Below are positions 1 through 21,711 of a DNA stretch of 33,003 nt, in pieces; position 1 is the first letter of the stretch; each line of letters opens with the position of its first letter. Where the stretch lies: NCBI GenBank assembly GCA_024278235.1, contig JAJRTO010000285.1:1-33003 (forward strand). The letters are read 5' to 3'. The translations under genes were made by a program, and so were the position numbers. The notes under the pieces were generated by a model. It worked only from the letters and a program-made list of their open reading frames with translations. It was not told the origin of the DNA and did no database searches. The DNA is from Candidatus Poribacteria bacterium (lineage in GTDB: Bacteria > Poribacteria > WGA-4E > JAJRTO01).

Positions 1-124
1 ATGGTGTCTGCGAGGTCTGTCATACGACGACGGCCTATCATCGCAATGATGCCACGGGTAACCATAGCCACAATGTGGGGACGAACTGTACCACCTGTCA
101 CCCCCATTCGGATGGGTTCGCGCC
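1..124 (+). repeat. Direct repeat copy 1, heme module (truncated by window edge)
   Basis: These 124 bases are identical to 1063-1186. The offset of 1062 bases is exactly 354 codons, so both copies are read in the same frame and encode a CEVCH...CTTCH two-heme module. Identity stops after position 124; the left limit is unknown because the window begins inside it. Confidence 0.95.
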
Positions 125-2024
125 AGGCATGGGAGGAGGTTCCCACACAACGCACGTCAACGCCACCTATGGCCCTCAGTTGGCCTGTTCGGCGTGTCAT
201 GGAAGCAATAGCCCACCGACACTCGCCGATGGCCAGAATCTCGCTGGCACGACCGTGTGCACAAATTGCCATTCATCGGATGGTGTTGCCAGTGCCAAGT
301 CCTACTGGAACAATCCCGGTTCGTCCGAAGGGACTGCGGGGAGTTGGGGAGTCGCAGCAGGGGAAGCCAGTTTCTGTGGAAGCTGTCACGATGCGACCCC
401 CGGAAACAGTGCTCAGGATGGCAGTGGCAACAATGCAACCAACATCATGGGAGATGGTTCCACCTATGGAGCCTACCAGACAGGTCACAGCAAGGCATCC
501 GGCAACTACACCAGACTTCCCTTCCAATCCGTATCTGCAACAGGGAATCCCGCAGCGAATCAGGCATGCTCTGGTTGCCACAATCAAACCTCCCAGCACT
601 TCAGTGCAACGAATCAGCGACTGAAGTCGGGGTTTGAGAATGACGCGAGCAACAGCAACTGTCAACAGTGCCACCCACCTGGAACGGTGGCAACGGCCGC
701 ACCGATAGACTACACGACATACGCTTACTTCCAGGCGACTCCGCATAGTGCGAGCAAGTGCTCCGACTGTCATGATGCACATGGCGCCACGGGTGCGTTT
801 GTGGGTATGACGAAATCTGGTTCAGGCACACGTTGCACGACGTGTCACAATGGGACCACAGCGACCGATGCAGCAACGCATCAGAGTCTGGACTGTGCAT
901 CTTGTCACAATCCTCATGCCCAGGAACAGGACAACGCCTATGGCACGACGTATGGGAAGCTGGTTCGGACGCAGGTGGAGACCCCGAACAGCGGCGCAAA
1001 GTCTGTCAAGTTCACGGGTGCGACAGGTACGAATTCCTTTGCGGATGGGGATGCGACGTATGATGGTGTCTGCGAGGTCTGTCATACGACGACGGCCTAT
1101 CATCGCAATGATGCCACGGGTAACCATAGCCACAATGTGGGGACGAACTGTACCACCTGTCACCCCCATTCGGATGGGTTCGCGCCTACCGGCGGGGATT
1201 GTACTGCCTGCCATAGTGCTCCACTGGTTCATGTTCGTCAGATCGTCGGTGCAGGTGGTGATTTTTCACAACCATCCCATCATGTCAATGGGACCATCCA
1301 GGCATCTGACTGCACTGTCTGTCATGACACATCGAACCATCAAGGCGGCACGGTCTATCTATTTAACGTCGATACGAGTGCGAGCATCGCCTATACAGGC
1401 CCCGCTTCGCTACAGCCCTTCTGCGCAAGCTGCCACGATGCAGATGGCGTCAATGGGGACACAACGCCCTTCTCGGATAATGTAACGGTTCCCAATATGG
1501 AGACACCGTTCAATTCCGGCAATCCCTCTTACCATCCGATACAGGCCCAGAGTCCGAATGCCGGCATCAATTCCGGTGCTTTCGTGAACGGATGGAGCCC
1601 CGGGGACACGATGTACTGTGTGGATTGCCACATGGGGCCCATCTCAGGCTCCCACGGTTCGCAGTACGGTTACATCCTGAAGAAGGACTATACGGCGAGC
1701 AGTGCCAAGCGCACGATGTCCTCTGCCGAACTCTGTTTCGATTGCCATAATTACAATACCTACGGTAAGGACCAGGGTGGCAACCCCAATCCCAAGGATT
1801 ACAGCCGCTTCAATAAGCATCTGAAACATGTGGACAAAAAACAGTATCCCTGCTACGCGTGCCACGACTCGCACGGTTCCACTTCTGAGACCCACTTGAT
1901 CATAACAGGGAGGAGCCCGGGGATAACGAGCTTTACTCCATCGCCGGATACGAGTACAAACGGTAGTTGCGCCGGTACCAGCGGGTGTCATGGGAATAAG
2001 AGCTACAAACTCAAATACAACTAA
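3..2024 (+). CDS. Multiheme c-type cytochrome, 5' partial
   Basis: The reading frame is open to the left edge, so the N-terminus and signal peptide are missing and the ATG at 75 is not a real start. The visible part is about 673 residues with 18 CXXCH motifs and, at the very C-terminus, one CAGTSGCH (CX5CH). There is no membrane helix or recognisable catalytic domain, which suggests an exported electron-transfer protein. The last third (from NPSYHP to GRSPGIT) is closely similar to the C-terminus of the second cytochrome at 5481-7736, so the two are paralogs. Spacing of paired CXXCH motifs resembles the Geobacter-type 'CXXCH/CxxxxCH' secreted cytochromes. A 124-bp stretch at its visible start recurs exactly 354 codons later. 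The adjacent NHL protein, second cytochrome and beta-barrel suggest periplasmic or extracellular electron transfer. Multiheme identity is certain from sequence; partner and acceptor are inferred. Confidence 0.93.
   Translation, partial: GVCEVCHTTTAYHRNDATGNHSHNVGTNCTTCHPHSDGFAPGMGGGSHTTHVNATYGPQLACSACHGSNSPPTLADGQNLAGTTVCTNCHSSDGVASAKSYWNNPGSSEGTAGSWGVAAGEASFCGSCHDATPGNSAQDGSGNNATNIMGDGSTYGAYQTGHSKASGNYTRLPFQSVSATGNPAANQACSGCHNQTSQHFSATNQRLKSGFENDASNSNCQQCHPPGTVATAAPIDYTTYAYFQATPHSASKCSDCHDAHGATGAFVGMTKSGSGTRCTTCHNGTTATDAATHQSLDCASCHNPHAQEQDNAYGTTYGKLVRTQVETPNSGAKSVKFTGATGTNSFADGDATYDGVCEVCHTTTAYHRNDATGNHSHNVGTNCTTCHPHSDGFAPTGGDCTACHSAPLVHVRQIVGAGGDFSQPSHHVNGTIQASDCTVCHDTSNHQGGTVYLFNVDTSASIAYTGPASLQPFCASCHDADGVNGDTTPFSDNVTVPNMETPFNSGNPSYHPIQAQSPNAGINSGAFVNGWSPGDTMYCVDCHMGPISGSHGSQYGYILKKDYTASSAKRTMSSAELCFDCHNYNTYGKDQGGNPNPKDYSRFNKHLKHVDKKQYPCYACHDSHGSTSETHLIITGRSPGITSFTPSPDTSTNGSCAGTSGCHGNKSYKLKYN
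1063..1186 (+). repeat. Direct repeat copy 2, heme module
   Basis: Second copy of the repeat at 1-124, with 100% identity over 124 bases. Zero divergence, including at silent positions, means a very recent duplication, gene conversion, or an assembly effect at a contig edge. Confidence 0.95.
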
Positions 2025-2101
2025 CCGGATGGGCTCGAAAAGTGTTATCGGAGATCGCAAATCGCTTAAGGATTGGCGAGAATAGAAAGGAGTTGCACAA
2101 C

Positions 2102-4240
2102 ATGTGGAGGAGATATCGTCATACCGGATTTCATCTAATATGGTTACTCCTGTTAGTCTTCCTGATTCGTTCGCTTGCGGCATCTGTCGAGCTGCCAAAC
2201 GCCACCTATCTCTCCAGTTTTTCTGAGGGGTTGTATGCTCCTATAAGAATTGCGACAGATGCCCAGGGGAATGCCTATGTCACGGAAACGCGTCGACATC
2301 GTGTATCTGTTCTTGATTCGTCTGGAAATCTGGTACGGATGATTTACGGGATACAATCTCCTCTGGGCATTGCTGTCGATAATCGTGGCAAACTCTATGT
2401 CGGAGACAGGGAAACGGGAAGTGTGACCATACTCAACCCGGATGGTTCATCCGCAGGTAAGCTGGGCATCGGAATCGGTCAATTCACCATGCCGGCGGAT
2501 ATTGCCATCGATTCACAGAACAAGATCTATGTGGTGGACAGTAAGGAGGACTGTGTCAAAGTCTTCGACCAAAACGGGAGCTACCTATCTCAGTTTGGTG
2601 ACTCAAAGCTTGTCTTCCCCACCGGAATTGCGATTGATGAAACCAATGATGCCATACTTGTCGGACAATATGGTGGACTGGAAGACGGGAAGAATGCCGC
2701 AAGGATCCAGATTTTTGACCGGAATGGAAACTGGAAGAAGAGCATCGGTCAATACGGGTCGAAGCCGGGAGAATTCACACGTATCCAGGGGCTGGCGGTC
2801 GATGGAAAAGGAAGGATCTATGTGACGGATTGCTTCCAATCAACCGTTCAGGTTGTCGATTATACGGGTCGGTCGCTTGCATTCATCGGGAACTATGGGA
2901 CCGGACCGGGACAGTTGCGGCTTCCGTCCGATGTCGCCCTTGATCGGTACAATAGACTCTGGATCACATCCTCTGACAATGGACGGGTCGAACTGTTTGG
3001 TATCGATGAGTTCAGTTTGCCAGGCGGTGAGTCATCGAGTGATACCGAAGGTAGCTTTGGCATGGAGTTGGGAGTTGGCGTCAATTTCATCTCTGTACCG
3101 TTGAAACCATCCACTGATTGGCATCTCAGTGACCTGGCCGCCCATATCGGTAGCGGTGTGGTCTCGATTCTCGCCTATTCCTCCGACGAAGGCAAGTTCG
3201 TGAACTACCTACCCAGTTTCACGGACGATGTCTCTGCGAATGTTCCCGTGACGGGAAGTGCGGCTTATATCATCGTGATGAGCGAAGCGAAAACGGTGAA
3301 GTTCCAGGGCACGGCATGGGAAAGGGAAGTCGACCTCCCCTCCGGCGTGAGCATGTTTGCCGTGCCACGACAGCCGAGCGGTGAGTGGAGATTGAGTGAT
3401 CTGGTGACGCACATCGGGGATGGATTGATCCATCTCATCACCTATAACCGATTCCGTCGACAATGCGAGGCCTACTTTCCCGGGGTTCGATCCTCACTGA
3501 ATACAACGGTAGAAGGTGGTGTCGGTTATCTGGCCGTTATGTCCCAACCCAAGAAAGTCTTGTTTGAGGGGGATGCCTGGCGTGATAGGCCGCTCATCCC
3601 CGCGGCACCCATAGTGGACGGTCCAGCACTATCGAACATCCCCGTGCTTGTCATCACTGGAGAAGCGCTGAATCTGGAAACCGGACAAACCCTCGAAAAG
3701 ATCAGCATCGAGATCAAGAACTCATATACGGATGTTACTCAGACAGTGACCACGAATTCTGATGGAGTCTATGTGGCAGCGTTCATCGATCTGGTCGATA
3801 ACCGAGCCGCGACTGTGGGGGATGTGCTTCAGATGAAAGCAACAGGCCCCCGGTGGCTGAGCAAAACGATAACCTACACACTGACTGCCGAAGACATTCA
3901 GAGGAATCATATCGAGCTTCCTCCTATGGAACTGGAAGCCATGCCGAGGGAATCCGTTCTGCTTCCTAGCTATCCGAATCCGGGCAACCCTGAGACATGG
4001 ATCCCCTTCCGCTTGAATGCGGATGCCGACGTGGTGGTCGAAATATACAATCTCTCCGGTCAACAGATCCGCACGCTCGCCCTCGGACAAAAATCGGCGG
4101 GTAACTACATCGACCGTCAGCGGGCAGCCCGCTGGGATGGAAAGAACAACGCTGGGGAGAGCGTCACCAGCGGCGTCTATTTCTACACACTCCGCGCCGG
4201 TACATTCGAGGCCACTCGCCGCATCGTCATTTTGAAGTGA
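2102..4240 (+). CDS. Secreted NHL-repeat beta-propeller protein with FlgD-like/sorting C-terminal domain
   Basis: 712 residues from the ATG at 2102, chosen because AAAGGAG sits at 2086-2092 and the protein then begins with a good signal peptide (WRRYRHTGF then a Leu/Val-rich core). Residues about 30-310 form roughly six NHL repeats (IRIATDAQGNAYVTE-like units), one beta-propeller. Residues about 320-510 hold two copies of a module starting FISVPLKPS / MFAVPRQPS and containing DWHLSDL / EWRLSDL. A carboxypeptidase-regulatory-like beta sandwich follows (about 520-615). The end (about 620-712) is a FlgD-Ig-like domain with YPNPGNPETWIPF, SGVYFYTLRAG and TRR. This C-terminal type is common on secreted proteins of Poribacteria-like and Bacteroidetes-related lineages, where it anchors or sorts the protein. 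It lies 77 bp after the first cytochrome and is probably co-transcribed. A scaffold or docking role near cytochromes is inference; no enzymatic motif is visible. Confidence 0.85.
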   Translation: MWRRYRHTGFHLIWLLLLVFLIRSLAASVELPNATYLSSFSEGLYAPIRIATDAQGNAYVTETRRHRVSVLDSSGNLVRMIYGIQSPLGIAVDNRGKLYVGDRETGSVTILNPDGSSAGKLGIGIGQFTMPADIAIDSQNKIYVVDSKEDCVKVFDQNGSYLSQFGDSKLVFPTGIAIDETNDAILVGQYGGLEDGKNAARIQIFDRNGNWKKSIGQYGSKPGEFTRIQGLAVDGKGRIYVTDCFQSTVQVVDYTGRSLAFIGNYGTGPGQLRLPSDVALDRYNRLWITSSDNGRVELFGIDEFSLPGGESSSDTEGSFGMELGVGVNFISVPLKPSTDWHLSDLAAHIGSGVVSILAYSSDEGKFVNYLPSFTDDVSANVPVTGSAAYIIVMSEAKTVKFQGTAWEREVDLPSGVSMFAVPRQPSGEWRLSDLVTHIGDGLIHLITYNRFRRQCEAYFPGVRSSLNTTVEGGVGYLAVMSQPKKVLFEGDAWRDRPLIPAAPIVDGPALSNIPVLVITGEALNLETGQTLEKISIEIKNSYTDVTQTVTTNSDGVYVAAFIDLVDNRAATVGDVLQMKATGPRWLSKTITYTLTAEDIQRNHIELPPMELEAMPRESVLLPSYPNPGNPETWIPFRLNADADVVVEIYNLSGQQIRTLALGQKSAGNYIDRQRAARWDGKNNAGESVTSGVYFYTLRAGTFEATRRIVILK

Positions 4241-4407
4241 GGCATATTGCATGTGCCCGTTGGACCTGTGAACTCGCATCCGCTCACAGGGATAGGAAAA
4301 CCCGCAAACTATCTTTTTAAGCTGCATTTGGTATAACAATAAGGGGGGGCTCCCAACTGTATCTTTGTCGGGGGCCCTTTCTCACGAATGCTGGTTGTTT
4401 TCTAACC

Positions 4408-4436
4408 TTGACAATCGCACACCAAACCGACATACT
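4408..4436 (+). promoter_or_regulatory. Candidate sigma70-type promoter before second NHL gene
   Basis: TTGACA (4408-4413, perfect -35), 17-bp spacer, CATACT (4431-4436, 4 of 6 to TATAAT). Transcription would begin about 35-40 bases before the ATG at 4480. It lies in a 239-bp gap, so the second NHL-cytochrome-barrel group may be transcribed separately from the first. Confidence 0.45.
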
Positions 4437-4479
4437 AATAAAACTGGCTCTTGTCCCCTTATTTTCACACAGAATTCTG

Positions 4480-5478
4480 ATGAACCATAAAACTGAGATC
4501 GGTATTGCCGTGATCTTCTCTCTTCGGATATTCATTGCATCCCTGCTCATCCTCGCCTCACCGATGACATATGCGGGAGTGGATGATAACGCTGCACAGC
4601 CATCTTCCGCGCAGAGCAAAGAAGTGTTCGTCGATGATGGCATTTCGATAACATTTCTATTCGCTATTGAACGGTTCTCGGACGATCAGAAACTCGTTAA
4701 GCCAATGGGCGTTTGGTACGATAAACATCATGATGAGATATATATCGCTGACACAGGAAACAACCGGGTCGTTGTGTTTGGTGTGGGCGGGGAACCGCGT
4801 TTTCAGATTCGTGGTATTCAGGGATTGAGTGAGCCACTCGACATTTTGGTCGATGCGGAGAGCCAGATCTATGTGAGCCAGATGGAAAAACGTAGCCTGC
4901 AGATCTTCGATTTTCGAGGGGAACACTTGATGGATCTGTATGCACCCGATGCGACTCCCTTCAAACCTGGAAGAATGTGCTTCGATGTCGATGGGAAATT
5001 GTACCTCGTTGACAGGGAAAACGCAAGAATCCTGGTGTACGATACGGAGGGTAACTTCCAGTTTCAGTTCGGTAGAAAAGGCACTGAAGAAGGCGAATTT
5101 CAACTCATATCGGGGATCGCCGTAGACAACGCAGGGCGGATCTACGTAGCTGATTCCAAACAATATCCCGTTCAGATCTTTGACAGAAGAGGTCGGTTCC
5201 TCTATACTTTTGGTGCTCGTGGCCCTCGCAAAGGGGAGTTCTCGTTTCCGGGAGGCATCTTCGTCGATACTCAGGGCAGGTTGTGGATCACAGACACTTT
5301 CAGACACCAGGTAAAAGTCTTCAAGACAGATGGGACCCACCTGTTTCAATTTGGCACCTTCGGATCAAGACCCGGACAGTTTTTCTTCCCGATTGACATT
5401 GCACTTGACGAAAATAACAGGATCTACGTCCTGGAAAAAGGAGCCAGCAGATTGCAGGTTCTCCGGATACAGGAATAA
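4480..5478 (+). CDS. Secreted NHL-repeat (6-bladed propeller) protein
   Basis: 332 residues from the ATG at 4480. The TTG at 4408 lies inside a -35 promoter hexamer and would add a non-signal extension, so it was not used; no strong Shine-Dalgarno precedes 4480. An N-terminal hydrophobic stretch (IAVIFSLRIFIASLLILA) ends in MTYA before GVDD, a plausible signal-peptidase site. The rest is about six NHL units such as GVWYDKHHDEIYIADTGNN, GIAVDNAGRIYVADS and GIFVDTQGRLWITDT, enough for one complete propeller and nothing else. It lacks the sandwich and sorting domains of the NHL protein at 2102-4240. The stop is followed two bases later by the start of the next cytochrome, so the pair is almost certainly one transcript. 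NHL proteins are often found next to extracellular cytochromes; a binding or assembly function is inferred. Confidence 0.87.
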   Translation: MNHKTEIGIAVIFSLRIFIASLLILASPMTYAGVDDNAAQPSSAQSKEVFVDDGISITFLFAIERFSDDQKLVKPMGVWYDKHHDEIYIADTGNNRVVVFGVGGEPRFQIRGIQGLSEPLDILVDAESQIYVSQMEKRSLQIFDFRGEHLMDLYAPDATPFKPGRMCFDVDGKLYLVDRENARILVYDTEGNFQFQFGRKGTEEGEFQLISGIAVDNAGRIYVADSKQYPVQIFDRRGRFLYTFGARGPRKGEFSFPGGIFVDTQGRLWITDTFRHQVKVFKTDGTHLFQFGTFGSRPGQFFFPIDIALDENNRIYVLEKGASRLQVLRIQE

Positions 5479-5480
5479 TC

Positions 5481-7736
5481 ATGTGCGACTTAAGGTACTG
5501 GATTCATACTATCTTCATCATTCTTTTCTGCACTGTCTCTATTGCTAAAGCGGGTACCTGGCATCAACCATCACAGATCATCTGCTCTGACTGCCATACG
5601 ATGCACTACAGCGAGGGTGGAATGATGCCTATGGATGCAGAAGCGGGTGGGCCTTTTCCTCGTCTGCTCCTGGCGAGCACAACAACCGCTCTGTGCCTTG
5701 CCTGCCACGACGGCACTGATACGGATGCTCCGGACGTCGTGTATCCGGTCACTTATACCCCCGATCCCGCAGCGGGATATTTTGCGAACTCCGGAGGTGC
5801 TGCGAGTGACAACGCCCACAACCTCGGTATGTCCACCGGGGAAATGCCACCGGGAGGAAGCGATAGCCTGATCCTGAGCTGTGCCTCCTGCCATGAGCCA
5901 CACGGCAGTGTCAACCACCGGAACCTACTACTCAACCCGGTGGGCAGTGGCAATAGCGCAAATGTTGGGGTTGTTGTAGCTCAGACAAAATCTGCAGATG
6001 GACCGGGTGGGAACACCCCTGCTGAAGTCTACACACCCGCGAATCTTCGCTACAAGAGTGGCATGAGCGACTGGTGCAATGATTGTCATACCAACTTCCA
6101 TGGATCCACTGAGACAGGTTCTCCGGAACCGTGGTTTCGCCATCCGCAGGATGTGACGATCTATGGACAGCAGTACACCGACTATAGTCACTGGAGTGGC
6201 TCTATCACTAATCGCATCGAGGTGGAGAGCCCGGATTCGATCATTCCTGGTCTGGATGATCAGGTGTTTTGTCTTTCCTGCCACAAAGCACATGGTTCTG
6301 CTAATCAATCCGGTCTGATCTTCGCGGATGGTTCCAGGATGCTCTCCACCTGTCAGCAGTGTCACAACAAGGTTTATGAATCCACCAAGCATGGTAATGC
6401 GCTGACTGGTGTCTATCGGGTTACAGGAGATCCGAAAGGAGATTGCACCCAGTGTCACGATCAGCATGCAAGTCGGGATAGTGTGCCGACGCAGGGTGGT
6501 CCTCATGACTATCTTCTGTTTGCCGGCAATGACAACAATCTCTGTTATGCGAACGATGGTGCTGGCCCCTGTCATGCTTCGACCAGTAGCAATGAAATCT
6601 ACCAGAGTTCAACGACCTACCAGAATTCCTCCCACGCAACCAGCACAAATATGTACTGGCCCGGGCCGACGCCTCCGGCGCGTCCGTTTTCCGATTATGG
6701 CGAATGCCTGAACTGTCATACACCCCACGGTTATGACGATGGTGGGGGACTGGTGCCGAGCCAGGCGATCTCCCGGGAGGAGAACCTCTGTGAAACATGT
6801 CATGATGGTTCTCCGGCAAGCAATGTGAAAAATGACATCATCAACACTTACCGTCATCCGGCCCATGATTACTCGGATCGACATGATCCAGCCGAGGGAG
6901 GAACGACGAGTAGTTTCGGAAGCGCAAATCGTCATGCCGAATGCACCGATTGTCACAATGCACACTATGCGAAGTCCGATGTGTTTACTCCACCGCATCC
7001 CGATGCCTCTGAGCGGATCAAAGGGGTCAGTGGTGTCGCCGTTCTGAACGGTGGAGCAGGAACCCAACCGACCTATACCTATCTCTCTCCCAGTGTGGGT
7101 ATTAAGTATGAATACCAGCTCTGCTTCAAGTGCCACTCGTCTTGGACCGTACAGCCAGGCTGGCAGCCTGACATGGCCAAACTGTTCAATACCAACAACC
7201 CCTCCTACCATCCCGTCGAAGCCCAGGGAACCAATTCGGGGATCGATTCCCGCTCTTTTGTCAATGGTTGGGCTCCCGGGGATACGATGTATTGCACCGA
7301 TTGCCACGGAAGTGATAGCTCCTTGCTGGAAGGACCACACGGTTCCCAGTACAATTACATCCTGAAGAAAGACTATGTGGCGAGTAGCAGTCAGCGTACT
7401 ATGTCATCCAACGAAATCTGCTTCGACTGCCACAACTATGATACATACGCCAATGATCAGACGAAAAAAACGGCCGGGAAATACAGCCGCTTTACGAAAC
7501 ACTCCAAGCATGTCGACAGGAAGCAGTATCCCTGTTATACCTGTCACGATTCGCATGGATCGACGGACCAGCCACATCTCATTGTGATCGGTAGAAGCCC
7601 CGGCATCACGGACTATATTGAATATCCGGACGGTGGCAACTGTAGTGGGTCAGGTGGAGGTGGAGGTATGGGAGGGGGAGGGGGAGGAATGGGATGCCAT
7701 GGTTATGAAAACTACACCGTTGAATATCCGAGGTAA
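5481..7736 (+). CDS. Secreted multiheme c-type cytochrome with expanded heme motifs
   Basis: 751 residues. The ATG at 5481 follows the previous stop by two bases and opens a signal peptide (WIHTIFIILFCTVSIAKAG). I count 14 CXXCH motifs. Two further positions look like variant heme sites: CYANDGAGPCH (CX8CH), and a terminal Cys separated by 17 mostly Gly/Met residues from Cys-His (CX17CH). The second aligns with CX5CH at the end of the cytochrome at 3-2024. The region from NPSYHPVEAQ through GRSPGIT is strongly similar between the two proteins, including CFDCHNY and KQYPCYTCHDSHGS. There is no membrane segment besides the signal peptide. It is sandwiched between an NHL protein and a beta-barrel, as expected for the cytochrome of an outer-membrane or extracellular electron conduit. 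Heme occupancy of the variant motifs is unproven. Confidence 0.93.
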   Translation: MCDLRYWIHTIFIILFCTVSIAKAGTWHQPSQIICSDCHTMHYSEGGMMPMDAEAGGPFPRLLLASTTTALCLACHDGTDTDAPDVVYPVTYTPDPAAGYFANSGGAASDNAHNLGMSTGEMPPGGSDSLILSCASCHEPHGSVNHRNLLLNPVGSGNSANVGVVVAQTKSADGPGGNTPAEVYTPANLRYKSGMSDWCNDCHTNFHGSTETGSPEPWFRHPQDVTIYGQQYTDYSHWSGSITNRIEVESPDSIIPGLDDQVFCLSCHKAHGSANQSGLIFADGSRMLSTCQQCHNKVYESTKHGNALTGVYRVTGDPKGDCTQCHDQHASRDSVPTQGGPHDYLLFAGNDNNLCYANDGAGPCHASTSSNEIYQSSTTYQNSSHATSTNMYWPGPTPPARPFSDYGECLNCHTPHGYDDGGGLVPSQAISREENLCETCHDGSPASNVKNDIINTYRHPAHDYSDRHDPAEGGTTSSFGSANRHAECTDCHNAHYAKSDVFTPPHPDASERIKGVSGVAVLNGGAGTQPTYTYLSPSVGIKYEYQLCFKCHSSWTVQPGWQPDMAKLFNTNNPSYHPVEAQGTNSGIDSRSFVNGWAPGDTMYCTDCHGSDSSLLEGPHGSQYNYILKKDYVASSSQRTMSSNEICFDCHNYDTYANDQTKKTAGKYSRFTKHSKHVDRKQYPCYTCHDSHGSTDQPHLIVIGRSPGITDYIEYPDGGNCSGSGGGGGMGGGGGGMGCHGYENYTVEYPR
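7644..7693 (+). repeat. In-frame GGA/GGT-rich microsatellite
   Basis: A purine-rich run of GGA, GGT, GGG and ATG codons encodes a Gly/Met stretch between the Cys and Cys-His of the last heme motif of the cytochrome. Length changes in multiples of three would alter only the loop length; the sister cytochrome has no such tract. Confidence 0.8.
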
Positions 7737-7862
7737 CCCTTGCGATCCTGTATGACACAAATACAGACGGTACTTCTGCATCACAACCGGAGGATCGAGG
7801 CGCCAGAAAGCCGGGGGGCTGGTTTTCCGGCCTTAACGACCGTTGGAGTCTAGCTTAAGCTG

Positions 7863-9499
7863 ATGCATAGTCTTCGTGGCAAACTCTTACTGGCTTTGTC
7901 CTTCTTTTTTTTTTCTGTTCGCTGACGAACCACCTGTGCGGGACAGCCAGTGCCCAAGTAAACACAACCACCTCGTTCTCCTATGATCTGATCAAGGCGG
8001 GGGGAGAATGGTCGAGAGAATCTGAGCAGCGCATCAACCTATCGCTCACAGGGAAAACCGGCCTGGCGAAATTGTTGGGCCTCAATGTTGGCGTCCTGCA
8101 AAGGGGCAAAGAACGGGATCTCCTGGGAGGATTCACGCCAACATACAACCTTAATTTGCAGGGGAAACACTATACGCTTGCCAGCGGCTATTCTGTACGC
8201 ACGTTCAGAGGGATGGTAAATCCACGCCTCTATGAGAATCTGACCGTTACTTTACCTGGATTGCCGACTTTCCGCATGGCTTACGCGAAACAAGATACAA
8301 GAGATACCGCAGAAGAACCCAAGATAAACTCCAGCAGAATCAACATGCAACTTGGACTGGAGGATGAGCTTGGACCCTTTCGCGTCCGGTTAGACAAGGT
8401 GGAATACACTTCAAAGGATCTGATCCGGGGACCCACTTACGACATCAAATCTTCCGATACCACTGGCGAAGCGATCTTCGCCTATTCCTACAGACGGTTA
8501 TTTTCTCTGAGTGGACAGTACAAGCTGGGAGAGCTTCGTACAGAACGAGCCACAACGGGGGAGACCTATGAGGAAACGCGGGATTTCTCTGCAGGATTTC
8601 GTATTAGCCCCGTACCCACTATCACACTGTCCGGAACGATGCTCGGACGGCAAGAACAGAGTAGTGGATTCACGGGGGATCTCACGATGGACTCACTGAC
8701 GAACCGGATCCAATTGATGCTTCAGCCATTGCGAGGTATTCTCATGAATACCACCTATTCCAAGAACGATATTTCTGAGAGCGAACAGCGTCCTGTTTTG
8801 AATGAGAGCTTGTCGGTGACGCTCTATGTGGAACCTCGACAAGGATTGGTGTTTTCCGGCTATGTCACCGCTCATGATTCCAGTGAAGACAGTCAGCGGC
8901 TGCTATCTCTCAGGAGAAGTTCCTTCGATTTACGAGCCGAACCCATTGAGGGGATCAACGTCATATCGCGTATCGATTCATCTGAGTCCACCAATTTCGT
9001 AAGTGATCTCCGCAACAGCAGGAACAATGTCGTCACAAGATTAGAAGCGATTCCCACAGCAAACTTGAGGACCGAAGTCAGTTATGACTGGCAGAGGTCG
9101 AGTCGGTGGTCACGCGGTCGAACTGACGATGAAACTCAGCACACACTTGCATTCGATTTGAATTATTCTTTCATTCGTATGTTGGATCTCAACCTCAGAT
9201 ACAGCAAGAACATATCAACCGCATGGGAGGGCAGCACAAATTCTCTGACATATGGTATCAACTATCAGAGAGACGGATCGAATATCTCTATCCGGTACAG
9301 TAAGACGGAAAGCCCTGAAATTGATCCTTTATCCCTGCGCAGGAAGCTTTCCGCAACCAATATTTTCACCAGTGAGATCAGACAAGAGATAAGCCGGGGC
9401 AATTATCTAAGTTTACGTTATGAAACCCGCTCCGACAACAGGCAGTTCGGCCCTGGTAAGACAACAAGGATCTCATTCCAGGGAAATCTCAGGTTTTGA
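7863..9499 (+). CDS. Outer-membrane beta-barrel (porin-like), signal peptide frameshifted at poly-T
   Basis: The downstream open frame begins formally at a TTG (8072) with no ribosome site and no signal peptide, but homology-free inspection shows the true beginning further left. An ATG at 7863 encodes HSLRGKLLLALSFFF, a classic n-region and hydrophobic core, then meets TGA. Shifting frame inside the T10 run (7905-7914) continues as CSLTNHLCGTASAQVNTTT, with ASA a signal-peptidase site. Eleven or eight T would restore one frame of about 545 residues. The mature protein is a long series of alternating beta-strand segments with many Arg/Asp/Ser turns and ends RISFQGNLRF, the C-terminal Phe typical of BAM-assembled barrels. 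It follows a multiheme cytochrome by 126 bp, fitting the porin of a porin-cytochrome conduit. Family assignment (MtrB/PioB/OmbB-like role) is inferred from context only. Confidence 0.72.
7905..7914 (+). repeat. Homopolymer T10 in signal-peptide codons
   Basis: Ten consecutive T inside the hydrophobic core of the beta-barrel signal peptide. The upstream ATG frame and the long downstream frame differ by one base across it. This is either a contingency (phase-variable) tract or a homopolymer length error. Confidence 0.85.
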
Positions 9500-9526
9500 T
9501 GGATGCCTTTGACTGGAGGCGCGACT

Positions 9527-12430
9527 ATGGTTGCTCTATCAGAAAGTCTCAATACAAAAATCATCCTTGCAGTTGTCCTCTCGCTCGCTATGATGCTGGC
9601 CGCTTCTTTTTATCTACTTGGTGAATACCAGAAGACGCAACTCATGAGGCATATGAAGGCTTACTCGAGCCAGCTCAACGAAGCGATCCGTCTTAACTTA
9701 GAACATAAGATGCTCAGAAACGAAGTGAAAGACATTTATAACAGCATTCGAGAATTGGAGGATCAACGGTATATCGAGAGGGTACGGGTCCTCGATACGG
9801 AGGGAAAGGTAGCCTTTTCTCCCAAGCAGGATGAGGGAGACAAAACATTGGAGACCTTCCTCCCGATGACCTATCGCCAGTTCTCTGATATGGAGACATC
9901 GGCTTCTCCCAGGCAAACAGTGTTTGAAAATCTGAAAAAACAGAGCATACTACGTAGCACTTACTACATCCCCAATCAAATCGAGTGCCAGACATGCCAT
10001 GCTAAAGAACAGAAGATACTTGGTACGTTGCTTATTGACACTTCGCTGACAGGGGTCGAGCGTGAGATGGCAAGTCTCTCCGGAATCATGTTTTTCGTGG
10101 GACTGGTCACTCTGCTCTCTGCTGCTTCTGTCATTATTGTCGTCCTTCGGAGATTAGTCATTAAACCGATTGAACTCTTGGCTCTTGGTACGCAGAAACT
10201 GGCGGATGGGGAACGGGATTATCGAATCCAGACTCAGGCAAAGGACGAAATTGGGAACCTGACGAACTCTTTCAACATGATGGCTGGCAAGCTGAAGGAC
10301 TCACAAGAGAAGCTTGAGAACTTTAACGAAGAACTTCAGCAGGAGGTGGAAAGAAAAACTCAGCAGATAAAGGCCAATGCTGATATGCTGCTGGCTGCAA
10401 CCCAAACGTTCAATGAATTGACCCTGGCTGCTCTGCACGATGACACCGAGGTGCTATTCGAGAATCCGCACCTGAGGAAGTGCTGGGAGGAACACAGTTG
10501 CAAGAAAACCGACTGTTCCGCATACGGCTCGGACGATCTCCGCTGCTGGCAAATTGCAGGAACATTCTGCGACGATGAAGTGACGGGGCATTTTGCCGTT
10601 GAACTGGGAGATTGCCGAAAGTGTCGGGTGTTTCAAGCGAGCATCGGGACGGAGCCCATCATCCAGATCGGTGAAAACTTCAACAACATGATGTATCACC
10701 TCAGAAGTCAGCAGCAGAAACTCATCGATTTCAGCGAGCAACTCCAGGAGAAAAACAGGGAACTCCTGCAACGGAACGCCGAGCTGGCCACCCTACTCGA
10801 TATCGGGGCAGAGTTCTCTCATTCCGTTGAATTCCAGCGTGTCATCGACAAGATTCTCATGAAGACCAACGAGTTCTTCGGTAGCCACTCTACCGTACTT
10901 TTCCTGCTGGACGAGGACAAAACCCAGTTTACCACATTTTCCATAGGATGGGAGGATGAGGAGGATGTCAGGGACAAACTCCCCGCTCATTGTGGTGTGC
11001 CCGGCTGGGTCGTCGCACATGGCCGACCCATGCTTATTCATGACACCACCGAAGATTCTCGGTTCAAACAGATATATCAAAAGCAGACAGTGCGTTCTAT
11101 TCTGATGGTACCGATAGGTGTCAACGGAAAAATCGTCGGCACTCTGGGTACGGCAAGCCTGGATACGAACTGCTACAACGAAGAGCAGATTGATTTCCTT
11201 ATGGCGATTGCAAACTATGCGGCAGTCGCCATGGAGAATGCGCAACTTTTCGAGCAGCAGAAACGCTCCTATAGTCAACTGGAAGAAGCGCATGAGCAGA
11301 TGATCCGCACGGAGAAGTTAGCGGCCTTGGGCGAAATGGTTTCAGGCATCGCCCATAATTTCAACAATATCCTGGCAGGAATATTGGGGTACACGCAGTT
11401 ACTGCAAACGAAGGTCAATGATCCACAGATACTGACCAAGCTCAATATCATCGAAAAGGCAACTTTGTCCGGTGCAGATACAGTGAAGCGCATGCGAGAT
11501 TTCGCAAGGAAAGCAGCATCGAGCGAGGAACTTTTTCCATTGAATATCAATGAAATCGTTGAATCTGCTCTGAAGCTCACGGAGGCATCATGGCGAAATG
11601 CGGCGCAGGAGAAGGGGATCAACATCGATGTGCACACGGATCTCGGAAAGGTAAGCCCTATCCTGGGCAATGCTGCGGAACTGCTTGAGACACTGAGCAA
11701 TATGATCCTGAATGCGGTCGATGCGATGCCGGAAGGTGGCGAGATCATGCTGAGGACGTTCTCCGATGCAAAATCCATCATGATTACGGTGACAGATACG
11801 GGTATCGGTATGTCCAATGAGATACAACGGAAGATCTTCGATCCGTTCTTCACGACGAAAGGCACCCAGGGAACGGGACTCGGGTTGAGTATCTCTCACT
11901 CGGCGATCCAACGGCACGGTGGTCGCATCAGCGTAGATAGCACAGAAGGCCAGGGCACGACTTTCACGATCACGCTTCCGATATCTGTGGATCGGCGTGA
12001 CACCGTGAAAGGGGAGGAGCCGGAAGTTGTCAAGCAGGAAGAACGGGTCCGAATCCTGGTTGTCGAAGATGACAACATGGTACGCAACGTTGTCACAAGT
12101 GTACTCACTGAGGATAGGCATGATGTCACAGCAGCCAGCAATGGAGATGAGGCCCTTGAATTCCTTCGGATCTCCAGTTATCATATTGTTCTGACGGACC
12201 TCGGCATGCCCGGAGTAACGGGTTGGGAGGTAGCTCGAGCTGCCAAGAACGCTTGCCCAGATACGCTTGTGATTATGCTTAGCGGTTATGGACTGGAAAT
12301 GTCCAAAGATGAACTTCGCGATAAATGCGTGGATATATCGCTAGACAAGCCCATCCAAATACAAAGATTGCGAAATATAATCAATGAAGTCATCTCCTCT
12401 ACGAATAACCATGAAGCGAACGCCCATTAG
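9527..12430 (+). CDS. Hybrid sensor histidine kinase with periplasmic heme-c site, two-CW, GAF and REC domains
   Basis: 967 residues from ATG 9527, which has GGAGG at 9515-9519; the earlier ATG (9503) lacks one. Order: TM1 (about 13-32), periplasmic domain with C154-Q-T-C157-H158, TM2 (about 190-210), HAMP, coiled coil, and a Cys-rich block with two CW pairs (C319-W320, C340-W341) and further cysteines, like the 'two-CW' domain seen in Geobacter-type sensors. A second coiled coil and a GAF domain (about 415-570) follow, then the HisKA H-box SGIAHNFNN (H610), HATPase with N-box NAVDAM, DTGIGM and GTGLGLS, and a C-terminal receiver with phosphoacceptor D891 (LTDLGMPG). The single CXXCH in the periplasm should bind heme c, suggesting redox, NO or O2 sensing. 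It starts 27 bases after the barrel gene and overlaps the next lipoprotein gene, so it probably senses conditions relevant to this cytochrome system. No separate DNA-binding output is encoded nearby. Confidence 0.93.
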   Translation: MVALSESLNTKIILAVVLSLAMMLAASFYLLGEYQKTQLMRHMKAYSSQLNEAIRLNLEHKMLRNEVKDIYNSIRELEDQRYIERVRVLDTEGKVAFSPKQDEGDKTLETFLPMTYRQFSDMETSASPRQTVFENLKKQSILRSTYYIPNQIECQTCHAKEQKILGTLLIDTSLTGVEREMASLSGIMFFVGLVTLLSAASVIIVVLRRLVIKPIELLALGTQKLADGERDYRIQTQAKDEIGNLTNSFNMMAGKLKDSQEKLENFNEELQQEVERKTQQIKANADMLLAATQTFNELTLAALHDDTEVLFENPHLRKCWEEHSCKKTDCSAYGSDDLRCWQIAGTFCDDEVTGHFAVELGDCRKCRVFQASIGTEPIIQIGENFNNMMYHLRSQQQKLIDFSEQLQEKNRELLQRNAELATLLDIGAEFSHSVEFQRVIDKILMKTNEFFGSHSTVLFLLDEDKTQFTTFSIGWEDEEDVRDKLPAHCGVPGWVVAHGRPMLIHDTTEDSRFKQIYQKQTVRSILMVPIGVNGKIVGTLGTASLDTNCYNEEQIDFLMAIANYAAVAMENAQLFEQQKRSYSQLEEAHEQMIRTEKLAALGEMVSGIAHNFNNILAGILGYTQLLQTKVNDPQILTKLNIIEKATLSGADTVKRMRDFARKAASSEELFPLNINEIVESALKLTEASWRNAAQEKGINIDVHTDLGKVSPILGNAAELLETLSNMILNAVDAMPEGGEIMLRTFSDAKSIMITVTDTGIGMSNEIQRKIFDPFFTTKGTQGTGLGLSISHSAIQRHGGRISVDSTEGQGTTFTITLPISVDRRDTVKGEEPEVVKQEERVRILVVEDDNMVRNVVTSVLTEDRHDVTAASNGDEALEFLRISSYHIVLTDLGMPGVTGWEVARAAKNACPDTLVIMLSGYGLEMSKDELRDKCVDISLDKPIQIQRLRNIINEVISSTNNHEANAH

Positions 12431-13058
12431 CAAGACGCCGGTGATATATTTCTTACTCGTATTGCTGGTCGCTGTCATCGTGGTGGGATGTGCGGGTCCT
12501 CATGTCTACATCCATCCCAGTCCGGGACTGGATAGAATCAAGCGGATCGCTGTCCTGCCGTTTGAGAACTTCTCGAAGGACGACAAAGCTGGTGACAAGG
12601 TACGGGTTACTTTTGTCATTGAACTCTTGATGGTCGGCAGTTTTGATGTGATGGATATTGGTGAAGTGGACAGGATACTCCAACAGAAAGGGCTCATATA
12701 TGGCAGGAGTTCAGGTATGCCTCCTACCATTAGTGCACCTGGAACAGAAGAACAATCGGTGACCACCGTGCCGCTCAGCAGGCAGATAGGAGAGGCACTG
12801 AATGTCCAGGCGATACTCCTCGGATCTGTCGAAGCCTATAATGCCGAGCGAGTTGCGGATCGTACCATCCCTGAGGTCAGTATTGCGGTGAGGTTGATCG
12901 ATGTCGATACCAATATCATCATCTGGGCAAGTACGCATACCCGACGGGGGAGCGCAGGAATCCCCATTCTTGGATGGGGAAAGATCAGTTCCCTGAGCAC
13001 ACTGTCTCAGCACGTTATTCAAGACATGGCCAACGCTTTAGCCAAATACACCCGTTGA
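12411..13058 (+). CDS. CsgG-like lipoprotein
   Basis: 215 residues from ATG 12411, which gives a standard lipoprotein leader (KRTPISK, hydrophobic core, VVGC lipobox, lipidated Cys27). The ATG at 12384 in the same frame would add nine non-leader residues. The gene overlaps the kinase by 20 bases and has no clear Shine-Dalgarno, so coupled translation is likely. The body begins RIAVLPFENFS, continues with a helix-rich part (VIELLMVGSFDVMDIGEVDRIL) and LLGSVEAY, and ends with VRLIDVDTNIIIWAS. This is the pattern of the CsgG/HfaB and related (GNA1162-like) outer-membrane or periplasmic lipoproteins. It lacks the full length of E. coli CsgG, so pore formation is uncertain. It is a clear paralog of the N-terminal half of the next gene. 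A role in envelope assembly or export of the cytochrome or propeller proteins is inference. Confidence 0.72.
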   Translation: MKRTPISKTPVIYFLLVLLVAVIVVGCAGPHVYIHPSPGLDRIKRIAVLPFENFSKDDKAGDKVRVTFVIELLMVGSFDVMDIGEVDRILQQKGLIYGRSSGMPPTISAPGTEEQSVTTVPLSRQIGEALNVQAILLGSVEAYNAERVADRTIPEVSIAVRLIDVDTNIIIWASTHTRRGSAGIPILGWGKISSLSTLSQHVIQDMANALAKYTR

Positions 13059-13091
13059 TACACGAGGAACCAGTATACCGAAAGGAACGCG

Positions 13092-14510
13092 GTGTTCGAT
13101 CTCATCGTTTCATTGGACCGAACAGCCCACTGGCAGAGGATAGCAGTGCTCTTGATGAGCATACTGCTTGGTGTATCCGGATGCGCAAAAGCCCCCGTAA
13201 GAGGATATCTCAAACGTGGTATAACACCCGCACATGTGGGTACTCTAGCGGTGCTTCCCTTCGACAATATCAGTGGTCATCCCGATGCCGGAAAAAAAGT
13301 CGTCAATCTTTTGCTGACGGAACTTGCTCGCGCTGAACTGTTTGAAATAGCGGAGGCCGGGGAGATCGAGAAATCGCTACGGCGCCTGAGGATCCGAACG
13401 ACAGCAGAACTCGATCTGGCTAAACTCCAAGAGTTGGGACAGCAGATCAATGCCCGGACGGTGATTGTTGGCTCCGTGGATGAGTACGAAGTACGTCAAG
13501 AGAGAGCCGAATCCATCCCTATCGTTGCCGTAAACGCCCGGATGCTCGACACTGAAACGGGAGACATCCTCTGGGCGGCCAGCCACGTGCATGATGGAGA
13601 CGATTGGGAAACAGTCTTTGGCTTTGGAAAGATCACCTCGCTGAGTCAACTCGCAAAGACCGTTATCTCAGAGATGGTGGAATCGTTGGTGCAGGGATTG
13701 ACAACACCACAAAGACCAGGTCAGCCAAGCATACCATACCGGAAAACAGGGAGACCGAGTTCGACAATAGGGCCTGTGTATCCAGAAGATCCGTATGCAG
13801 TACCCTCTTTGACGCTGGAGAAAAAGGTCACTCCGCCATCTATTGCCCTCGGTCAGACGGTCACATTCGACATCATCGTTTCCAATACTGGTAGAGGACG
13901 GGCCACGAATGTCGTTATCCTGGACAAGCTCCCACCCAGTTTGAAATATAAAAAAGCAACGGACAACGGGATCCTCGATGCCATCGGCCATGTAAGGTGG
14001 CAGATCGATGTGCTGCGACCGAATGAGACAAAGGAAGTGAAACTGACGGTGATGGGCTTTACAGCAGGGCGTCACCTCAATGAGGTGACGGTCTCAAGTC
14101 GAGAGGGAGCGAAAGCGATGGGCAATGCCATCGTCACCGTCGTTGCAAGACCTGCCATCCGGATGACCATGACGGTCAGACAAAACCTCATCTCCGTTGG
14201 CAAGAATACAACCTATGCTATTGTGGTGGAGAACAAGGGGGCAGGAGCTGCGACGGGCGTTCTTGTGGTGGATAGTGTCCCGAAGAAAATGAAGATCATA
14301 CAGGCTACCTCCAGTGTCGGAACATATACGATACAAGAGAACACCATCACCTTCAACATCGGGACGATAGAACCCGGGGAGAAAGTACTTCTCACTGTTC
14401 ACGTCAAGGCGATCGGAACCGGAAACGTCGTCAACAGTGCCGAATTGACATTGCATGAATTCAGATATCCCATGACGGTTGAGGAACCAACGACGATCTT
14501 CGAAGATTAA
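13092..14510 (+). CDS. CsgG-like lipoprotein fused to two DUF11-like domains
   Basis: 472 residues from GTG 13092, with AAAGGA at 13081-13086. The leader ends in GVSGC (Cys31), a lipobox. Residues about 50-210 repeat the CsgG-like fold of the preceding gene (LAVLPFDNIS, VGSVDEYEV, ARMLDTETGDILWAASH, GFGKITSLSQLAKTVISEM). After a Pro-rich linker there are two tandem DUF11-type Ig-like domains. The first starts LTLEKKVTPPSIALGQTVTF and the second TMTVRQNLISVGKNTTYAIV, each with the SNTGxGxATNV / ENKGAGAATGV signature. DUF11 domains are found in large surface proteins of many bacteria. The combination with a CsgG-like lipoprotein is unusual in my knowledge. It probably lies in the same operon as the kinase and the lipoprotein before it. 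Function unknown; a periplasm-spanning or surface-exposed scaffold is plausible. Confidence 0.75.
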   Translation: MFDLIVSLDRTAHWQRIAVLLMSILLGVSGCAKAPVRGYLKRGITPAHVGTLAVLPFDNISGHPDAGKKVVNLLLTELARAELFEIAEAGEIEKSLRRLRIRTTAELDLAKLQELGQQINARTVIVGSVDEYEVRQERAESIPIVAVNARMLDTETGDILWAASHVHDGDDWETVFGFGKITSLSQLAKTVISEMVESLVQGLTTPQRPGQPSIPYRKTGRPSSTIGPVYPEDPYAVPSLTLEKKVTPPSIALGQTVTFDIIVSNTGRGRATNVVILDKLPPSLKYKKATDNGILDAIGHVRWQIDVLRPNETKEVKLTVMGFTAGRHLNEVTVSSREGAKAMGNAIVTVVARPAIRMTMTVRQNLISVGKNTTYAIVVENKGAGAATGVLVVDSVPKKMKIIQATSSVGTYTIQENTITFNIGTIEPGEKVLLTVHVKAIGTGNVVNSAELTLHEFRYPMTVEEPTTIFED

Positions 14511-14512
14511 GC

Positions 14513-14547
14513 AGATTGAAGATTGAAGATTGAAGATTGAAGATTGG
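14513..14547 (+). repeat. Tandem heptamer AGATTGA x5
   Basis: Five consecutive 7-base units AGATTGA (last one AGATTGG) directly after the stop of the DUF11 lipoprotein gene. No gene or hairpin explains it; it lies in the 144-bp gap before the parvulin gene. Confidence 0.9.
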
Positions 14548-14654
14548 TAAAGCCCGATTATCACTGGTGTTTTTCGCCTCGAAAGTTCATGATCTCTTCT
14601 GAAACTTGCTTAAATCTGAAGATTAAAAAAACAAATTCAAGGAGTTAGAGACCG

Positions 14655-15641
14655 ATGAAACAGCAAATCAAACGCATACCCGCAAGCCTTGTCATCGACA
14701 TCGCAGGCACTTGCCTGATGACACTCTTGGTGGTCTTATTCCTGGCAGGTTGTGCCACAACGACTCAGGTAGTCAACGAAAATGCGGTATCCATCGCTGC
14801 TGATGGCGAGGCCACAGACAAATCGCCAGAGAAGGCTGAAACAGCGGAGCAGACAAATGCTGCAGAAGAGGTGGTTTTGGCAACGGTCAACGGTGAAACA
14901 ATCACCATCAAGGAGTACAACGAAAAACTGAAGCGGCTGTCCGCCTTTGAGAGAGCCAGATATCGTAGCGAAGCAGGACACAAGAACTTTCTAGATGCTC
15001 TGATTCTTCAGCTACTTATGGTACAGAAAGCAAAACAGATGGGGCTTGATCAAGACGAGGATGTCCGCAGCAAGATTGAGGCGCTCACACGGGAAGTGAC
15101 GGAACGCGTGTTGGCGGACGCATTGGTCGAGCGAGAAGTGATGGATAAAACCGTCGTAACGGATAAAGAGGCCAAAGAATACTATGCCAAACACAGGGAT
15201 GAGTTCGTAGAAAAAGAAAAGATAAGCGCGCGGCATATCCTGGTGGCAACAGAGGAAGAAGCCCAGGCCATCCTTGATGAACTCGCAAACGGGGCAGATT
15301 TTGCGAAGCTGGCAGAGGAGAAATCGAAGGATCGCGGTACGGCAAAGAAAGGTGGAGATCTGGGTTACTTTGAGCGTGGCAGTATGACACCTGACTTTGA
15401 GGAGGCGTGCCTCAGCTTACAGATTGGTGAGATCAGTGGCATCGTGAAAACCGTGTTTGGATACCACATCATAAAGCTGGAAGACAAAAAGGAAGCATCC
15501 CCCAAAGAGTTTTACGAAGTGACGGACGAAATCAAGAAGAAACTCATCGCTGACAAACGACGGGAGGCATATCAAAACTGGATCGAGCAGTTGAAAAAGG
15601 AAGCCAAGATAGAAAAAGATGAGGAATTCTTGACGCAGTGA
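14655..15641 (+). CDS. Parvulin-type peptidyl-prolyl isomerase lipoprotein (SurA/PrsA-like)
   Basis: 328 residues. ATG 14655 is preceded by AAGGAG at 14639-14644. The leader ends LFLAGC, with lipidation at Cys33. After a short low-complexity linker come a SurA-N-like helical chaperone part (ATVNGETITIKEYNEKLKRL, then LLMVQKAKQMGLDQDEDVRSKI) and a rotamase (parvulin) domain from about residue 188 to 280, with SARHILVATEEEA, GADFAKLAEEKSKD, KGGDLGYFERGSM and GYHIIKLED. A charged C-terminal helix follows. Family members catalyse cis-trans isomerisation of prolyl bonds and assist folding of exported proteins. Its position after the cytochrome, barrel and CsgG-like genes suggests it helps fold those clients at the periplasmic face of a membrane. 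The lipoprotein and PPIase calls are secure; the client is inferred. Confidence 0.92.
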   Translation: MKQQIKRIPASLVIDIAGTCLMTLLVVLFLAGCATTTQVVNENAVSIAADGEATDKSPEKAETAEQTNAAEEVVLATVNGETITIKEYNEKLKRLSAFERARYRSEAGHKNFLDALILQLLMVQKAKQMGLDQDEDVRSKIEALTREVTERVLADALVEREVMDKTVVTDKEAKEYYAKHRDEFVEKEKISARHILVATEEEAQAILDELANGADFAKLAEEKSKDRGTAKKGGDLGYFERGSMTPDFEEACLSLQIGEISGIVKTVFGYHIIKLEDKKEASPKEFYEVTDEIKKKLIADKRREAYQNWIEQLKKEAKIEKDEEFLTQ

Positions 15642-17060: not shown

Positions 17061-17736
17061 ACCAATCATTGAACGCCTGAATCGCCAGGAACGGATTCAA
17101 CATATGGTGATGCTCCTGGCTTTTACCACATTGACTATCACCGGTTTTCTGGTTTTTCTGCCTGAGAGATATGTCACATTTATAGGAACACCTGCTGAAA
17201 GTTTCTTTCAATGGCGTGGTTACATCCATCGGTTCGCGGGACTACTCACGGTGCTCGTCAGCATTTATCATATTGGCTATATCATTTTCACGGAGCGTGG
17301 GCGATGGTGCCTTCGTGAGTTACTGCCCTGTAAGAGAGATCTCACCGACCTGTGGCAAATGATGCAACACTTTCTTGATCCCAAGAAACCGATCCCGCGG
17401 TTCGGTTGGTACAATTACGTATAAAAGGCAGAGTACTGGGCGTTAGTATGGGGGACAGTCGTCATGACATTGACAGGATTCCTGCTGTGGTTTGAATCCA
17501 TGGTTCCTAAGCTCTGGCTTGATATTGCGACTGTCGTCCACCGCTACGAAGCCATCTTAGCGGTGCTGGCTATCATCGTGTGGCATTTCTATCACGTCCA
17601 CTGGAAACCCGGAGTTTTTCCCATGAGTTCTGTATGGCTCACCGGTCGCATCTCAGAAGAGGAACTGCGCGATCATCATCCACTAGCTTATGAAACGGTG
17701 ATGAAGAAGCTGGGGAAGGAATCCAATGAGTCCTGA
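17047..17736 (+). CDS. Cytochrome b subunit of quinol oxidoreductase, interrupted by in-frame TAA
   Basis: ATG 17047 has GGAGG immediately upstream and overlaps the previous gene. A TAA at 17422-17424 ends the frame after 125 residues at YNYV. The same frame continues directly as KAEYWALVWGTVVM, which is the expected continuation of this family (usually an acidic or Gln residue in place of the stop). The full product would be about 229 residues with four or more membrane helices and paired His ligands (RIQHMVM, HRFAG...YHIGY, HRYEA...WHFYHVHW), typical of the formate-dehydrogenase-gamma / cytochrome b561-like di-heme subunits that oxidise quinol. The downstream half could only start at ATG 17464. 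It overlaps the next cytochrome gene by 11 bases. The TAA may be a sequence error, a variant, or a real knockout of the quinol-oxidising step. Confidence 0.88.

Positions 17737-20034: not shown

Positions 20035-21711
<1,677 letters not shown>

Follow-up and report, generated by a model that had tools for sequence, protein, structure and literature searches.

Gene content of the window

The window analyzed here is a complete contig of 33,003 bp (JAJRTO010000285.1; G000:C208) from the 5.19-Mb, 536-contig genome of an uncultured bacterium of Candidatus Poribacteria. Open reading frame (ORF), motif, and domain scans of its positions 1 to 15,641 found genes for two large multiheme cytochromes, two NHL β-propellers, an outer-membrane β-barrel, a heme-sensor kinase, two CsgG-like lipoproteins, and a parvulin-type peptidyl-prolyl isomerase (PPIase), tightly packed, in places overlapping, and every one on the + strand (Table 1), in the order given by the original prediction for this sequence. 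We think it probable, judging from sequence comparison, that this locus is a divergent version of the osc operon of Geobacter sulfurreducens, folding, exporting, and electrically connecting filaments of OmcS-family cytochromes, and that it is joined to an inner-membrane quinol-oxidizing module. The earlier claim of an extracellular electron transfer locus with nanowire-type (OmcS-like) cytochromes is upheld by the OmcS homology and conserved linkage described below.

The locus extends past position 15,641: directly downstream (15,870-19,936) lie three genes whose products, a 7-heme cytochrome, a cytochrome b, and a 19-heme cytochrome of the NapC/NrfH type, plausibly make up the quinol-oxidizing module. 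Heme-sensor kinases related to that of the window adjoin clusters carrying an octaheme module, CT (see below), in Calditrichota and Neomarinimicrobiota, and another lies beside an OmcS-like cluster on contig C258 of the source genome; with its heme-type sensor domain, the window kinase is likely a redox regulator. Scans of the window for Rfam families and tRNAs gave no matches.

Table 1. Features of the cytochrome locus and the adjoining inner-membrane genes, in window coordinates
Feature	Position	Strand	Basis
Multiheme cytochrome with 18 or more CXXCH, truncated at the 5' end by the contig edge	3..2024	+	Motif count; Cytochrome_C7, Mtrc-MtrF domain
NHL six-bladed β-propeller with C-terminal FlgD-Ig	2042..4240	+	NHL 3e-25, FlgD_ig 1e-10
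NHL β-propeller, type adjoining OmcS-like genes in other genomes	4408..5478	+	Domain scan; linkage
14-heme fusion cytochrome, 14 CXXCH, signal peptide	5481..7736	+	OmcS 6ef8 match, alignments
OmcS-like hexaheme domain of 14-heme protein	aa ~25-297, 5553-6371	+	OmcS 6ef8 E 1.2e-8
Octaheme module CT of 14-heme protein	aa ~298-751, 6372-7733	+	Separate neighboring gene in other genomes
Outer-membrane β-barrel, osc-locus (OscE-position) family, ends ..GNLRF	7863..9499	+	Frames, hhalign 94.5%
Hybrid sensor histidine kinase: periplasmic one-CXXCH heme-c-type sensor, HAMP, GAF, HisKA, HATPase, receiver	9503..12430	+	PF21563 2.7e-7, HATPase 3e-27
CsgG/LpoB-like lipoprotein, OscF position	12411..13058	+	128.5 bits to window-free profile
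CsgG-like lipoprotein with two DUF11 Ig-like repeats, OscG position	13092..14510	+	CsgG 1.4e-6, DUF11 1e-35; 133 bits
Single-domain PPIC (parvulin) lipoprotein, SurA-like N terminus, OscH position	14655..15641	+	Rotamase_3 6e-26; 126 bits to OscH-position profile
7-CXXCH c-type cytochrome, C-terminal transmembrane helix, inner-membrane module	15870..17060	+	Motif and domain scans
Cytochrome b, inner membrane, in-frame TAA at 17422-17424	17047..17736	+	Frame check
19-CXXCH cytochrome, NapC/NrfH-type N-terminal membrane anchor, predicted quinol-oxidizing side	17726..19936	+	NrfH 4e-14; Cytochrom_NNT 2e-8

A cytochrome with an OmcS-like head and an octaheme tail

The first ~300 residues of the 14-heme protein match OmcS (PDB 6ef8) in a phmmer search of the PDB (E = 1.2e-8), as does a cytochrome encoded on C258 (E = 6e-11), and the domain aligns at 32-44% with hexaheme proteins encoded as stand-alone genes in this and other genomes. 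The source genome holds five OmcS-like copies: one in the window, three on C258, and one on C527, four of them unfused. The extra His of their CxxCHTMH motif (H18), which we take, from the phmmer alignment to 6ef8, to be OmcS His16, is invariant in nine aligned OmcS-like rows. In OmcS and OmcE, a His of the neighboring subunit ligates one heme (PMC9473688).

The remainder of the 14-heme protein is CT, and the last ~170 amino acids (aa) of the cytochrome with at least 18 hemes align as the same C-terminal domain. Our survey covered 40 OmcS-like loci, drawn from the 48 genomes with OmcS-like genes among the 395 examined in the phylum to which G098 belongs, and 10 loci from a domain-wide sample. 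CT is widespread outside the window, and in at least three clear cases it is a gene of its own near an OmcS-like gene. In a locus of a groundwater deltaproteobacterium (L026), a DUF4382-YncE propeller gene lies between the neighboring OmcS-like and CT genes; the two genes overlap by 42 bp in G287 (L150), are separated by 30 bp at L185, and also stand in tandem at L217 and L219. A similar fusion is found outside the window's phylum, in G777 (L215), with a BLAST alignment that spans the junction (E = 3e-48). Its recurrence there, together with the occurrence of its halves as neighbors elsewhere, argues against an isolated misjoin in the assembly as its source.

Many other apparent OmcS-CT fusions were rejected as weak overlaps of one heme region; after their removal, both stretches were held only by the window protein and that of L215. 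A 24-row alignment of the 14-heme protein was set aside because its OmcS-like rows were misaligned. The L215 protein (1676-6991, - strand; 1,772 aa) consists of an OmcS-like domain, a CT-like domain, and about 1,000 aa of immunoglobulin (Ig)/fibronectin type III-like repeats, and looks like a surface-anchored wire subunit.

An osc-type locus could also export OmcS-like cytochromes that work as monomers, either soluble or bound to the surface; the fusion protein would then just be a larger surface cytochrome. In Geobacter, wires are known only for OmcS itself, and the osc block is also found without omcS but with the OmcS-like gene GSU2501 (PMC12977616); CT in cis could, moreover, block polymerization, as has been suggested for the C-terminal domain of OmcZ before its cleavage. 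However, the inter-subunit His is kept in all OmcS-like copies, and the genome has four separate, unfused OmcS-like genes. We regard monomers as unlikely, though a serious alternative to filaments.

Putative export genes and a recurrent cassette

In G. sulfurreducens, the eight-gene block GSU2500-GSU2493, which lies beside OmcS-like GSU2501, has been linked to maturation and secretion of OmcS nanowires (PMC12977616), with roles in folding for OscH, secretion for OscE/F/G, and morphology for OscD (PMC13194489); OscI is GSU2495, with 26 hemes, and OscJ is GSU2494 (PMC13194489, PMC12977616). We found a recurrent cassette at OmcS-like loci of many genomes: barrel, CsgG1, CsgG2 (followed in some by a third CsgG-like gene), PPIase, 26-heme cytochrome, 16-heme cytochrome, NHL propeller, and OmcS-like cytochrome. 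It fits GSU2500-GSU2493 in number and order and agrees with the roles given for OscE/F/G/H, the Geobacter Osc proteins being compared by their published description.

Of 43 OmcS-like loci elsewhere, 23 have CsgG-like genes (22 of them two or more), against none of 81 control cytochrome loci (1.27 Mb), so the window's combination of parts is more than chance. The gene-neighborhood check proposed with the original prediction thus turned up conserved linkage rather than its absence, and this linkage in other genomes supports the CsgG-like/DUF11 lipoproteins, barrel, and parvulin as parts of the system. The original prediction did not recognize the combination from Geobacter or Shewanella; it matches the osc operon GSU2501-GSU2493 of Geobacter as described in PMC13194489 and PMC12977616.

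Cassette profiles built without the window and run on 277 kb of the source genome recovered the window's CsgG1 (128.5 bits), CsgG2 (133 bits), and parvulin (126 bits), as well as an OscI-like 26-heme protein on C349 (619 bits) and an OscJ-like 16-heme protein on C258 (397 bits). In a whole-genome search, the window's two CsgG-like proteins were the top two (130 and 125 bits), with the next at 68. By position and family, rather than by direct comparison with the Geobacter sequences, the window barrel would correspond to OscE, CsgG1 to OscF, CsgG2 to OscG, and the parvulin to OscH. The locus had also been said to look like a self-contained conduit, which it is not: other contigs encode the 26-heme and 16-heme proteins and the additional OmcS-like ones.

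Cassettes vary in their accessory domains. The second CsgG of other cassettes often carries Ig/FlgD-like domains, and the third an OmpA domain, which is comparable to the DUF11 repeats of the window. In the osc-type cassette of L188 (10375-11535, - strand), a CsgG-like domain is fused to an OmpA peptidoglycan-binding domain, which suggests a cell-wall-anchored ring. Propellers of the DUF4382-YncE type were seen at L026, L154, and L188. At several OmcS-like loci (L150:3273-6524, - strand; L217, L218, L221, and L223), the 26-heme and 16-heme cytochromes form one protein with 42 CXXCH motifs (26 + 16); those of L217, L218, L221, and L223, the loci where the profiles were run, match both the 26-heme and the 16-heme profile. 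In the window, about five tandem copies of GAAGATT (14510-14560) lie between the CsgG-DUF11 gene and the parvulin gene.

BLAST-type searches with the barrel in 59 relatives and 37 named genomes gave no matches beyond the source genome; its family is recognized only through position and profile. Against a profile of 15 osc-locus barrels, it scored 94.5% in hhalign (E = 8e-8, over 194 N-terminal columns), while control barrels from NHL-cytochrome loci without CsgG scored 1.7% and 0.3%. An unrelated transporter, the other outcome that the original prediction had set against itself, is thus not what the barrel proved to be.

The osc-locus match bears also on a porin-cytochrome conduit (PCC/Oet/Ext type), in which the barrel would hold a periplasmic cytochrome that hands electrons on to an outer one, no filament would form, and the CsgG-like proteins and parvulin would be assembly aids only. 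The barrel does lie immediately beside multiheme cytochromes, other phyla commonly show the NHL-cytochrome-barrel arrangement, and members of the CT family are found widely at loci of this kind. However, a porin-cytochrome-type profile of six NHL/cytochrome-linked barrels, with OmbB/ExtI outside the comparison, gave the window barrel only 6.1% (E = 0.006); the 14-heme protein showed no lipobox (the N terminus of the cytochrome with at least 18 hemes is off the contig); and the CsgG pair tracks OmcS-like genes, not such conduits. We consider this conduit quite improbable. Of the suggestion that the locus is an undescribed variant of a porin-cytochrome or a nanowire system, the nanowire half is supported, as a probable variant of the known osc machinery, and the porin-cytochrome half is, given the barrel family, not supported on present evidence.

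The barrel gene has an ATG at 7863 in another frame than its ORF, which is open from ~7871; a run of ten T residues (T10, ~7902-7912) breaks the frame within the signal peptide and represents a sequence error or else an on/off tract prone to slippage. Single in-frame stops interrupt otherwise intact conserved genes as well: GroEL (TGA, 20689-20691, - strand), an ABC-F ATPase (TAA, 22838, - strand), the cytochrome b of the quinol module (TAA, 17422-17424), and the intein (TAA, 30517-30519) that splits a B12-type ribonucleotide reductase gene at 28363-32748 (CLVGNTLITTDRG ... VPANVTYTANSFLSHN). That these breaks mark a decaying locus, one that has ceased to produce the barrel or cytochrome b, is very improbable, since the stops in GroEL, ABC-F, and the intein of the same contig point to assembly sequence errors and the 14 heme motifs and long ORFs are intact. 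A change of genetic code is not supported either: the candidate sites include every one of the three stop codons, and their number in a scan of a genome sample depends on the threshold (18 versus 4 in a complete genome of the same class at a loose threshold; 3 versus 2 when it was tightened). We therefore favor sequence error over recoding.

Multiheme cytochromes are numerous in the source genome as a whole. On C521 (L137:2278-4542, - strand), an NrfD-like membrane protein and a 10-heme cytochrome form one fusion protein; a sensor kinase with a CXXCH motif and an NtrC-type regulator are encoded nearby.

Proposed function and relation to known systems

If the locus is an osc-type operon, menaquinol would be oxidized by the cytochrome b/NapC-type multiheme pair, and electrons would then pass through the large periplasmic cytochromes, namely, the 16-heme (C258) and 26-heme (C349) proteins and that of the window with at least 18 hemes. 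The PPIC lipoprotein may assist folding of the hexaheme OmcS-like subunits, for which the barrel and the two CsgG-like lipoproteins would form the outer-membrane exit; once exported, these subunits (three from C258 and one from C527) would polymerize head to tail outside the cell. The heme-c sensor kinase probably controls the operon according to redox state or a ligand. Electron uptake, instead of outward flow, is equally possible.

As for the 14-heme protein, we infer that it forms the cap or the root of the filament and connects the wire to the outer-membrane machinery, because its OmcS-like head, with the extra CxxCHTMH His, could engage the filament while its octaheme tail takes the place of a partner cytochrome. 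A more specific form of this proposal is tentative, and we consider it unlikely: the head would dock the filament via inter-subunit heme ligation and the tail would sit in or on the barrel-CsgG channel, so that a single structure would serve for both assembly and electron entry. The stand-alone octaheme genes beside OmcS-like genes elsewhere would then represent this part in its unfused state. The exit of nanowires from the cell and their joining to the outer membrane have been described as speculative (PMC12307469). An OmcS-like subunit fused to its usual neighbor cytochrome, at a locus for export machinery, is a specific, single-gene candidate for the junction of wire and membrane.

Several points weigh against the osc-type interpretation. 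The cassette is spread over three contigs, so that linkage of the 26-heme, 16-heme, and OmcS-like genes is not visible in the source genome, and the kinase gene separates the barrel from CsgG1. The window parvulin is shorter than the two-domain proteins at the OscH position and has one PPIC domain; the window propellers are NHL proteins, and no DUF4382-YncE propeller of the OscD-position type was found among them, in a search that covered the window only. AlphaFold models of the barrel alone and of the OmcS-like domain (nine rows) reached a predicted local distance difference test score (pLDDT) of 31 each and give no structural support. Geobacter homologs of OmcS other than OmcS itself are not shown to form wires (PMC12977616). 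The osc operon (Shen et al. 2025) is known here via PMC13194489 and PMC12977616, and its gene-name mapping comes from these secondary sources. The sequence quality of the assembly is imperfect and a weak point of the analysis.

At the thresholds used, none of the ~85 nearest genomes (same class or phylum) had an OmcS-like cytochrome, the 14-heme protein, or the barrel. FlgD-Ig tails of the NPETWIPF type may point to Poribacteria. A probable osc-type system is thereby placed in a phylum in which these relatives lack OmcS-like cytochromes, and it therefore appears to move between lineages or to have been lost from them.

Among known systems, OmcS itself (PDB 6ef8/6nef) shares with the window's OmcS-like domain the six heme motifs of a hexaheme domain and positions of the CHTMH, GH, RHP, and CNKCH type, but OmcS has 407 aa, whereas the N-terminal domain of the 14-heme protein has about 275 and is fused to a C-terminal octaheme module. 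With the CsgG curli channel, the window shares a CsgG-family domain, a lipoprotein signal, and a presumed role accessory to an extracellular fiber. Its Pfam scores are, however, weak (1.4e-6 for one protein, below the cutoff for the other), its two proteins are distinct paralogs, one with DUF11, and pore formation by them is putative. The OetABI/Ext/Omb porin-cytochrome conduits (PMC10553843) also combine a barrel with multiheme cytochromes at one locus; in contrast, the window barrel is of another family, no lipoprotein cytochrome was identified, and a CsgG pair and a PPIase are present.

A core set of propeller, 16-heme, 26-heme, and PPIase genes was noted earlier in partners of anaerobic methanotrophic archaea (ANME), as an operon of SEEP-SRB1 and Desulfuromonadales (PMC5539420). 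The same four core genes occur in the source genome or window, although spread over contigs here; in the part of that report available, no function is given for the operon and CsgG-like genes are not described.

The closest parallel is the osc operon GSU2501-GSU2493, which, by its published description, has in common with the window an OmcS-like hexaheme protein, an outer-membrane barrel, CsgG-like lipoproteins, a PPIC isomerase, and an NHL propeller, and whose 26-heme and 16-heme cytochromes have counterparts on other contigs of the source genome. The window differs in belonging to another phylum, in the fusion of its OmcS-like domain to an octaheme module, in the kinase between barrel and CsgG1, in the DUF11 repeats on its second CsgG, in its short, single-domain parvulin lipoprotein, in the apparent lack of a DUF4382-YncE propeller, and in the putative quinol-oxidizing module of its own that follows. 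The osc machinery for nanowire assembly was already known; the variant with an OmcS-like/octaheme fusion is new.

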